From contig VGRF01000007.1 of NCBI GenBank assembly GCA_016875395.1, positions 62,001-126,000 of the forward strand: 64,000 nt of DNA, written 5' to 3'. The position numbers and the translations under genes were made by a program. This stretch comes from Deltaproteobacteria bacterium (GTDB lineage Bacteria > Myxococcota_A > UBA9160 > UBA6930). The notes beneath the pieces were generated by a model. That model did no database searches. It was given only the letters and a program-made list of their open reading frames with translations, and was not told where the DNA came from. Shown piece by piece: positions 46,385 to 49,154 of the stretch; position 1 is the first letter of the stretch; the number at the start of each line of letters is the position of its first letter.

Positions 46385-46768
46385 ATGAGCAACGCGGCCA
46401 CGGCTTTCACGATTTCGGATTCGACGACAATGCCGACGCTTCGCGGCGAGAGCTGCGCGTGGGTTGCCGCCGCGCGAGGCGCTTGGAGCGACACCTGCTC
46501 CGTGCTGCGAGGTACTACCGGAATCATGAGCCACATCCTCCCGAAGCGTCGCAGCCTGATTCCCAGCTCGTTCGTCGTGCGTGCGTTGACCGCGCAAGGT
46601 CGGCGCTTCGCGTGCACGAACTGCGGTGAGCAGATGTTCGTGCGCTACGAGTCGGGCCTCTGCCCGCACTGCTACAACGGCCGCCGCCCACTGCGCGGCA
46701 CCGAAGCAGTCCGCGAGGTGCCCGTGAACCTCGCGCTGGCCGGGATCGACGACTGCTACGAGCTCTGA
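46385..46768 (+). CDS. Small zinc-ribbon protein of unknown function
   Basis: A 127-residue protein; ATG 46385 follows AAAGGGGGCCACCCC. An in-frame ATG at 46526 would give 80 residues and is also plausible. The C-terminal half has a four-Cys zinc ribbon CTNCGEQMFVRYESGLCPHC. The N-terminal 45 residues are low-complexity and may not be translated. It diverges from glnE. I do not recognise a family. Confidence 0.55.
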   Translation: MSNAATAFTISDSTTMPTLRGESCAWVAAARGAWSDTCSVLRGTTGIMSHILPKRRSLIPSSFVVRALTAQGRRFACTNCGEQMFVRYESGLCPHCYNGRRPLRGTEAVREVPVNLALAGIDDCYEL

Positions 46769-46897
46769 TCCGGCCGAGCCCCGCGGCAGAGGATCCCCGC
46801 AGCCGCGCGCCAGCCCACGTGCGCGCCGCGGCTCGATGACTGACGCGCAGCCTGCGCGCTGGAACGACCTCGCTGACGAACGCTACTCACTGCGTGT

Positions 46898-46982
46898 CGT
46901 CCGAGGCCGCAAGCGAAGCGCGCAGCAGCGGGCGAGTCCTCGAGCCCGATGCGAAGTAAACGTGGAGAAAGCGCGCGCCTCC
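46898..46982 (-). repeat. ~85-base dispersed repeat, copy 2
   Basis: The minus strand of this spacer aligns with 30069-30152 over about 85 bases, with shared GTTTACTTCGCAT, GAGGACT, GCTGCGCGCTTCGCTTGC and GGCCTCGG blocks. It lies just upstream of the histidine phosphatase. Confidence 0.7.
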
Positions 46983-47001
46983 CCATCCCCGAAAGAAGCT
47001 C

Positions 47002-47607
47002 GTGTCACCGATCTACCTCATCCGCCACGGCGAAACCGCGCTCAACGCGAACCGCACGCTTCAGCCCCCCGCGACGCCGCTCTCCGAACGCGGCCTCGCG
47101 CAGGCGGAGCGACTCGGAGCGCGCATGGCGCCGCTCGGCATCGCGCGCATTCTCGCGAGTGATCTCGCGCGCGCGGCGATGACGGCGGAGGCGGTGCGCA
47201 AGACGACGGGTGCGCCGCTCGAGCTCGACGCGGAGCTGCACGAGCGCAACTTCGGCGACTGGCGCGGCACGCCCTACGAACAGCTCGGCTTCGACCCGTT
47301 CGCTCCGGGCATGAGTCCGCCGAACGGCGAGACCTGGGAGGTGTTTCACGAGCGCGTCGTGCGCGCGTGGCGAAACGTGCTCTCCGTCGCGGCGCGCACC
47401 GACGGGCCGCTCGTGGTCGTCACGCACGGCCTCGTGTGCCGCGGCGTGATCGCCTTCCACGCGCCGCCCGCCCCCGGCCTCGCGCAGCCGGCCGGCTTCC
47501 GAAACACCTCGGTCAGCGTGCTGGAGCGCGCGCCGAGCGAATGGCGCGCGACGCTGATCGACTGCGTCGCGCACCTCGACGATGCGCGGGAGACGGGCGC
47601 GGCGTAG
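47002..47607 (+). CDS. Histidine phosphatase family (phosphoglycerate mutase-like) protein
   Basis: A 201-residue protein from GTG 47002. IYLIRHGETALNANRTLQ carries the catalytic R-H-G, and LHERNFGDWRGTPYEQLG the acidic partner. VVVTHGLVCRGVIAFHA provides the second His. Likely substrates are small phosphorylated metabolites; members include alpha-ribazole and broad phosphatases. Its last 60 codons are duplicated immediately downstream (47711-47906). Confidence 0.88.
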   Translation: MSPIYLIRHGETALNANRTLQPPATPLSERGLAQAERLGARMAPLGIARILASDLARAAMTAEAVRKTTGAPLELDAELHERNFGDWRGTPYEQLGFDPFAPGMSPPNGETWEVFHERVVRAWRNVLSVAARTDGPLVVVTHGLVCRGVIAFHAPPAPGLAQPAGFRNTSVSVLERAPSEWRATLIDCVAHLDDARETGAA

Positions 47608-47640
47608 CGGGTTGCCCGAAGACCGGGGGACGCGAAAACC

Positions 47641-47698
47641 GGGGACGTTCCGCAAGTAGGTAAAGGACGACTTTCTTTACTTACTTGCGGAACGTCCC
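47641..47698. repeat. REP-like hairpin GGGGACGTTCCGCAAG, copy 1
   Basis: Arms 47641-47665 and 47675-47698 form a stem with one G-T mismatch around GACGACTTT. It lies 34 bases after the histidine phosphatase stop codon. A second, perfect copy is at 47925-47983. Confidence 0.85.
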
Positions 47699-47710
47699 AG
47701 AATCCCCGCG

Positions 47711-47906
47711 CGGCCTCGTACGCCGCGGCGTGATCGCCTTCCACGCGCCACCCGCCCCCGGCCTCGCGCAGCCGGCCGGCTCCCCCGCAACACCTCGGTC
47801 AGCGTGCTGGAGCGCGTGCCGAGCGGGTGGCGCGCGACGCTGATCGACTGCGTCGCGCACCTCGACGATGCGCGGGAGACGGGCGCGGCGTGCACGTTGC
47901 CCGAAG
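47711..47906 (+). pseudogene. Duplicated 3' fragment of the histidine phosphatase gene
   Basis: This segment repeats 47428-47620 with few changes, including CCGCGGCGTGATCGCCTTCCA and GACGCTGATCGACTGCGTCG. A 2-base expansion in the CTTCC-to-CTCCCCC tract shifts the frame, and the original stop codon TAG is altered to TGC. It has no start and cannot encode a phosphatase. Confidence 0.85.
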
Positions 47907-47924
47907 ACCGGGGACGCGAAGACC

Positions 47925-47983
47925 GGGGACGTTCCGCAAGTAAGTAAAGGACGACTTTCTTTACTTACTTGCGGAACGTCCCC
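47925..47983. repeat. REP-like hairpin GGGGACGTTCCGCAAG, copy 2
   Basis: Arms 47925-47949 and 47959-47983 are perfectly complementary over 25 bases around GACGACTTT. The element ends 28 bases before the racemase stop codon. Confidence 0.88.
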
Positions 47984-48011
47984 GATTCCGGCTGCATCCG
48001 CTCCCGTCCGC

Positions 48012-49154
48012 CTACGCCAGCGCCTTCGCGTTGCGCAGCTTCGCGACGTCCTCGTTCGCGATGCCCCACTCGCGCAGCGCTTCGTCGCCGAGCTGCCCGG
48101 GGTGCGGCGGCGGGCGCTTGATCTCGCCCGGCGTGCGGCTGAAGCGCGGCGAGGGGCCGGGCTGCGTCACGCCGCCCACCTCAACGAACGTCTTGCGCGC
48201 GATGTTGTGCGGGTGCTTGTACGCCTCGGGGATCGTCAGCACCGGCGCGAAGCACACGTCGCTGCCTTCCATCAGCGCGCACCACTCGTCGCGCGTCTTG
48301 GTCTTGAAGAGCGCGGTCAGGCGCTGCTTCATCGCGCGCCACTGCGTGCGGTCCATCTGATTCGGCAGCGTCTCCTTGTCGAGCCCCGTCTTCTCGAGCA
48401 GCTCCGCATAGAACTGCGGCTCGATCGAGCCGAGCGAGACGTACTTCCCGTCCTTCGTCTCGTACGTGTCGTAGAAGTGGGCGCCGGTATCGAGCAGGTT
48501 CGTGCCGCGCTCGCCCCAACCGCCGGCGGCGTAGAAGCCGTGGATGAACGCCATCAGCGTGGCGGCGCCGTCGACCATCGCGGCGTCGACGACCTGCCCC
48601 TTCCCCGAGCGGCCGCGCTCGACCAGCGCCGCGCAGATGCCGAGGGCGAGCAGCATGCCGCCGCCGCCGAAGTCGCCGACGAGGTTGAGCGGCGGCAGAG
48701 GCTTGTCGCCCTCGCGGCCGATGTGGGCGAGCGCGCCGGCGAGCGCGATGTAGTTGATGTCGTGGCCCGCGGCCTGAGCCATCGGGCCCTCTTGGCCGAA
48801 GCCCGTCATGCGCCCGTACACGAGCTTCGGATTGCGCTTCAAGCAGACTTCGGGCCCGAGGCCAAGCCGCTCCATCACGCCGGGCCGGAAGCCTTCGGTG
48901 AGCACGTCGGCCTTATCGATCAGCTTCAGCACTAGCTCGACGCCCTCGGGATTCTTCAGATCGACGCCGACGCTGCGCCGGCCGCGCGCGAGCACGTCGT
49001 TCGAGGGCTTCTCGGGGAGCGGCGAGCGCACGGTCACGGAGCGGTCGATGCGCAGTACGTCGGCGCCGAGGTCGGCGAGCATCATCGCGCAGAACGGGCC
49101 CGGCCCGATGCCGGTGATCTCGACGACCTTGATGCCTGAGAGCGGTCCTGCCAT
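48012..49154 (-). CDS. CaiB/BaiF family CoA transferase, alpha-methylacyl-CoA racemase-like
   Basis: A 380-residue class III CoA-transferase-fold protein. [23 protein letters not shown] is the family N-terminus. Residues matching the His126, Asp156 and Glu241 catalytic set of mycobacterial MCR are present in [28 protein letters not shown] and [12 protein letters not shown]. This favours racemisation of 2-methylacyl-CoA thioesters over CoA transfer. It would take part in branched fatty acid or sterol side-chain breakdown. Confidence 0.87.

Follow-up and report, generated by a model that had tools for sequence, protein, structure and literature searches.

The window, the 64,000-nucleotide stretch of DNA analysed here, carries an intact histidine phosphatase gene whose 3´ end is present twice in direct tandem order. 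Each copy ends with a hairpin, and a convergent gene follows the second copy. The locus comprises the following features.

47002-47607, plus strand: histidine phosphatase gene (branch 1), 201 aa, intact, with its tail in copy 1 (PF00300, E 3.4e-38)
47423-47705, plus strand: copy 1 of the tandem duplication, comprising the last ~61 phosphatase codons, the stop and hairpin 1
47642-47698, no strand assigned: hairpin element 1, 57 bp, with a 24-bp stem (47642-47665/47675-47698) and one G-T pair at 47659
47707-47989, plus strand: copy 2 of the tandem duplication, comprising hairpin 2 and, before it, a phosphatase tail that has decayed through a 2-base insertion and loss of the stop
47926-47982, no strand assigned: hairpin element 2, 57 bp, with a perfect 26-bp stem (47924-47949/47959-47984)
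48012-49154, minus strand: convergent neighbour gene, an ORF of 380 aa, with 27 nt between its stop and the end of the hairpin 2 stem

The two copies are contiguous, with a period of 284 bp. They are 93.3% identical over 285 aligned columns (bit score 419) and differ by 16 substitutions and 4 gap columns; the duplication is far beyond chance. The original prediction placed near copies at 47428-47698 and 47711-47983, and the true limits prove to be slightly wider. The 219 bp upstream of the hairpin match at 93%, and the longest exact run common to the copies is 64 bp. The phosphatase is complete with the tail provided by copy 1: its best homologues in relatives align to residues ~3-200 of 201, and among the homologues in 39 other genomes the best are 55-62% identical. 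In copy 2, the frame is shifted by a 2-base insertion at 47782-47783 and the stop is removed by a 1-base deletion opposite 47606, in agreement with the expansion and stop loss that had been proposed. The nine substitutions in the coding part are distributed 1/4/4 over codon positions 1, 2 and 3, as would be predicted for a pair of which one copy drifts freely. The convergent ORF resembles a CaiB-type CoA transferase.

Folding as single-stranded DNA yields -32.3 kcal/mol (z -12.6) for hairpin 2 and -26.5 kcal/mol (z -11.2) for hairpin 1. The stem of hairpin 2 is perfect and that of hairpin 1 is interrupted by a single G-T pair, as originally described. The accompanying suggestion that the hairpins are repaired toward identity did not hold. 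One of 57 hairpin positions is substituted between the copies compared with 15 of 227 in the remainder, a difference that is not significant (Fisher p = 0.21), and the stem of copy 1 carries one substitution; homogenisation of the hairpin was accordingly rejected.

A dispersed hairpin family and a transposase between two of its copies

The genome of the window comprises 4.51 Mb in 96 contigs. A 15-base arm of the hairpin, allowing up to two mismatches, has 97 matches in this genome compared with 29 for a reversed-pattern control; most of the two-mismatch matches fall outside the 35 regions that were fetched. These 35 regions contain 34 full hairpins at 27 loci, a locus count in which the hairpins at the start of contig C2 and the end of contig C39 (127 identical bases) may be one site counted twice. 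In each hairpin, a pair of terminal inverted repeats face each other, with the sequence GGGGACGTTCCGCAAGNAAGTAAAG in most copies. The arms consist of GGGACGTTCCGCAAG followed, in most copies, by NAAGTAAAG, and enclose a loop of 8-10 nt in most cases (about 9 nt). The loops show the hairpin element to be oriented. Many dispersed copies of an inverted repeat pair in one genome are what characterises a REPIN or miniature element, and the expectation that the hairpin is REP-like and repeated elsewhere in the genome is supported. No GTAG tag marks the hairpin foot: of the 76 arms for which flank was available, 72 have C at position -2 and 63 have G at position -1. None of the 96 other genomes in the relatives sample contains the strict, longer version of the arm. 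A scan of a genome-contig collection, in which the genome of the window itself may not be included, gave no match to the both-arm pattern. On contig C53 (L063:1038-1118), a related arm, GGGACGTTCCGCAACGAAAGCAACCA, forms a direct repeat with 40 bp spacing, possibly a sister family.

Contig C30 carries two hairpins (L037:1012-1069 and 2072-2129), one on each side of a transposase gene.

L037:1112-1948, minus strand: REP-associated (HUH, Y1-type) transposase gene on contig C30, an open 278-aa frame

In the encoded protein, His60 and His62 of the HUH motif and the single Tyr119 are invariant in 6/6 aligned sequences; in this family, these are the catalytic residues. The protein matches NF047646 (REP_Tyr_transpos; E 7.4e-7, 29.1 bits) below the cut-off of 80 and PF01797 (Y1_Tnp; E 0.0047, 17.5 bits) below the cut-off of 23, and its family membership consequently rests on motifs, similarity and flanking repeats. 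The gene emerged from an all-against-all comparison of the fetched loci, by its kinship to the Y1 transposase on contig C6; a Pfam search of the same genome returned the C6 transposase only and missed the C30 gene. Three such genes are present in this genome (C30, C6 and C25), and 23 of 94 searched genomes, this one included, have a transposase match. The C6 gene (L051:1859-2940) has repeats of its own, namely a short tandem array of the TGGGACGTACGTGCAC type upstream and a GGGGACGTACGT hairpin downstream.

The transposase has a flanking inverted repeat scoring 30 bits or more at 13 of 16 loci (C30 and 12 of 15 in relatives), whereas none of 13 phosphatase loci given the same treatment does. 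Among the best 80 of 432 relatives, 64 have enough flank and 47 of these have a flanking repeat, a count made with a wider downstream limit than 13/16 and without a control of its own; the two counts share some contigs and are not independent. GGGGAC lies in or beside the upstream arm at 32 of the 47 repeat-flanked loci. The best 80 of the 432 relatives belong mostly to Deltaproteobacteria and Chlorobi, with single genomes of Planctomycetes, Chloroflexi and Methylomirabilota type. In the Deltaproteobacteria and Chlorobi, the flanking inverted repeats often have a GGGGACG foot, and their body varies between genomes. A search for a Y1 transposase (RAYT) had been recommended as a check, and the C30 gene, with the same hairpin on both sides, answers it. 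Since the hairpins bracket an intact transposase gene, they point to a REPtron/TIRtron-type family in which two terminal repeats in inverted arrangement make up the small unit. Its position suggests that the C30 transposase is the likely mobiliser of the hairpin.

Paired hairpins and local duplications

Paired hairpins, separated by 131-284 bp, are present at six of the 27 hairpin loci (C1, C7, which is the window, C10, C18, C26 and C35), and the loops give the members of a pair one orientation in all six. Flank similarity was scored outward from the hairpin edges, with 1108 cross-locus comparisons as background. The summed scores of the window (181), C18 (87), C35 (30) and C1 (29) exceed all cross-locus comparisons except two. 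The highest cross-locus scores are 70 (the common contig end of C2 and C39), 44.5 and 26 (both C10 vs C26) and then 22. The pairs at C26 (16) and C10 (4.5) are not distinct from the cross-locus scores; at C10, the 64 aligned bases contain little beyond the hairpin itself. Four of the six paired loci have clear flank homology. At C18, the upstream flank match is similar to that of the window, and at C5, a single hairpin lies between two copies of a 96-bp flank (92%). The idea that hairpins are duplicated together with flanking DNA is therefore borne out at several loci.

Local direct duplications, defined by an offset of 60-450 and a score of at least 75 bits, were counted in a 1.664-Mb control sample made up of the window and 80 further stretches. 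This sample contains 10 hairpin loci and 14 duplications, of which 4 include the hairpin and 10 do not; the hairpin is thus not required. Since the window was chosen for its duplication and the C10 match is approximately the hairpin alone, a fair count is two duplications at nine hairpin loci. Six of the 10 duplications without this hairpin carry a G+C-rich repeat of the CGGCTTCGCCTCGC type (CGGCTTCGCCTCGCTGCGCGC / GCAAGCGAAGCGCGCAGC type).

L117:18504, L130:18315, L142:16861, L169:6247, L149:11106 and L117:3402: local duplications with the G+C-rich repeat

A stretch related to the CGGCTTCGCCTCGCTGCGCGC / GCAAGCGAAGCGCGCAGC repeat is also present in the window near 46910. The hairpins are one of several seats of local duplication in this genome. 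On contig C6, a 322-bp tandem duplication (L181:15157-15791, 96% identity) has a unit that ends in another, perfect 16-bp hairpin, so that flank and hairpin are once more repeated together. The broader proposition that a strong hairpin is present in almost every tandem duplication was tested and dropped: 6 of the 14 duplications have a best stem of at least 14, compared with a 99th percentile of 12 for 400 random windows, and in 4 of the 6 the stem is that of the hairpin studied here.

A composite block common to two loci

A hairpin-spacer-hairpin block is common to C10 (L033) and C26 (L035), which are otherwise unrelated loci. The C26 locus has a UspA-like gene whose 3´ end abuts the second hairpin, and the spacer there contains a decayed copy of the tail of this gene. 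The C10 block is flanked by phosphoglycerate-mutase-like and phosphoribosyltransferase-like genes (all three names were read from the sequence), and a UspA-like gene is absent within the 2.3 kb examined. Inside the block, next to the hairpins, 48 of 60 and 16 of 19 bases agree between C10 and C26, compared with 12 of 30 and 10 of 30 outside, and the similarity ends at the outer hairpin ends. When the C10 spacer was compared with its own genome (40 of 227 candidates scored), the matches were the spacer itself, two in C26 (82 and 65 bases) and five of at most 33 bases.

This one case, ~20% diverged, is a hint that hairpin-bounded gene ends may move. In the simplest view, the hairpins served as the ends of a moving block, as they would for the C30 gene; an excised circle recombining into a hairpin already at C10 would give the same product. 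It is conceivable, if rather doubtful, that tandem duplication of a hairpin and a gene tail creates a composite mobile unit, able to move as one piece and to distribute gene ends through the genome. On this view, the window locus would itself be a hairpin-tail-hairpin unit; scoring 40 of 330 candidates revealed no second place in the genome for its block. The literature searched contained no description of a gene tail that moves between hairpin ends, which is not proof of its absence in print.

Origin of the duplication and relation to known systems

The explanation that we favour, and regard as probable when taken as a whole, combines a miniature element, the C30 mobiliser and a local replication error. 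The hairpin would be a non-autonomous miniature element of two terminal inverted repeats, and its likely mobiliser would be the REP-associated tyrosine transposase of C30, placed between two hairpin copies. The element would have arrived in the space that separates two convergent genes, directly behind the phosphatase. Later, an error of local replication at the hairpin, possibly with a nick by the transposase, would have copied the 219 bp before the hairpin and the hairpin itself in tandem; we infer that strand slippage or template switching at this point was responsible. The gene would have retained copy 1 as its tail, and copy 2 would be drifting as a pseudogene.

A related but unlikely account assigns the duplication to the transposase itself, which would nick at the hairpin foot such that replication or ligation copies the neighbouring DNA, transposition and flank duplication being one process. 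The duplicated unit of the window ends 7 nt past the hairpin foot and the BLAST match at C35 ends 4 nt past it, and TnpREP enzymes are described as cutting single-stranded DNA 5´ or 3´ of the REP structure (PMC8266576). However, the homology extends 24 and 20 nt past the hairpin at C1 and C18, respectively, and weakly to 21 nt at C35. Tandem duplications with other strong hairpins also occur in the same genome (L117:15971 and L181:15157), and these point to a more general replication cause. Selection for a second hairpin is improbable. In this case, the hairpins would be kept for a job, such as transcription end or 3´ protection of the convergent genes, with one hairpin per gene; their placement fits, as hairpin 1 begins 34 nt after the phosphatase stop and 27 nt separate the stem of hairpin 2 from the stop of the neighbour. 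Against such a role, no T run follows either hairpin, no Rfam family matched within 46500-49000, and the same hairpin flanks the transposase and is present at many other loci.

An assembly artefact is very improbable. Hairpins are located no more than 300 bp from five contig ends (C2, C5, C23, C30 and C39), and C2 (L123:1-127) and the end of C39 (L061) share an identical 127-bp end containing the hairpin, suggesting that the assembly probably breaks at this repeat. The window copies, however, differ at 16 positions and 4 gap columns, and a joining error would not give diverged copies; their exact runs of at most 64 bp are shorter than the 127-bp contig overlap, so the assembler could separate them. 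Least probable of all are two separate hairpin insertions without duplication of the flanking DNA. The C10 hairpins, which share little beyond themselves (64 aligned bases, score 4.5), would fit such insertions, but all six pairs have one orientation, C18 has an upstream match similar to that of the window, and at the window itself the 93% match of the 219 bp before the hairpin already refutes them.

Tandem repetition of hairpin units together with flanking DNA, as in the window, has a precedent. In Pseudomonas fluorescens SBW25, Bertels and Rainey (2011) described 16 clusters of REPINs in tandem repeats 'including the flanking sequences', and the legend of their Figure S7 gives the unit as the REPIN together with a 5´ flank and another, shorter one (PMC3116915). 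The SBW25 REPINs are described as pairs of REP palindromes (20-40 bp repeats), whereas the window has a single stem of 24-26 bp; duplicated gene tails, present in the window, are unmentioned in the parts of that report compared here (PMC3116915). In the TIRtrons, or TIRYT genes, described by Di Nocera et al. (2013), a RAYT-type tyrosine transposase lies between terminal inverted repeats, and inverted repeats are likewise found on both sides of the C30 gene (PMC3733652). Some TIRtron repeats are described as dimeric and genome-repeated, and some contain a GGGGWSAS motif that does not define all of them; the hairpin foot GGGGACGT fits GGGGWS but not the last two letters, and, unlike TIRtrons as described, a complete hairpin is located on each side of the C30 gene (PMC3733652). 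The TnpREP/REPtron systems similarly tie an HUH, single-tyrosine transposase to palindromes, but their REPs are described as GTAG-tagged and the foot of the present hairpin is without GTAG (PMC8266576).

Since tandem REPIN clusters of Pseudomonas were reported in 2011, the pattern in the window was already known, and the window duplication is a new example of it in a new repeat family; the composite C10/C26 block is the only part without precedent in the literature searched. Tandem clusters of transposon-derived hairpins with their flanks, known from Pseudomonas, are present as well in a lineage that is uncultured and probably Myxococcota-like and whose repeat is another one, suggesting that the process may be general. 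If gene tails bounded by hairpins do travel as composite units, REP-type elements would offer a way for pieces of genes to be scattered.
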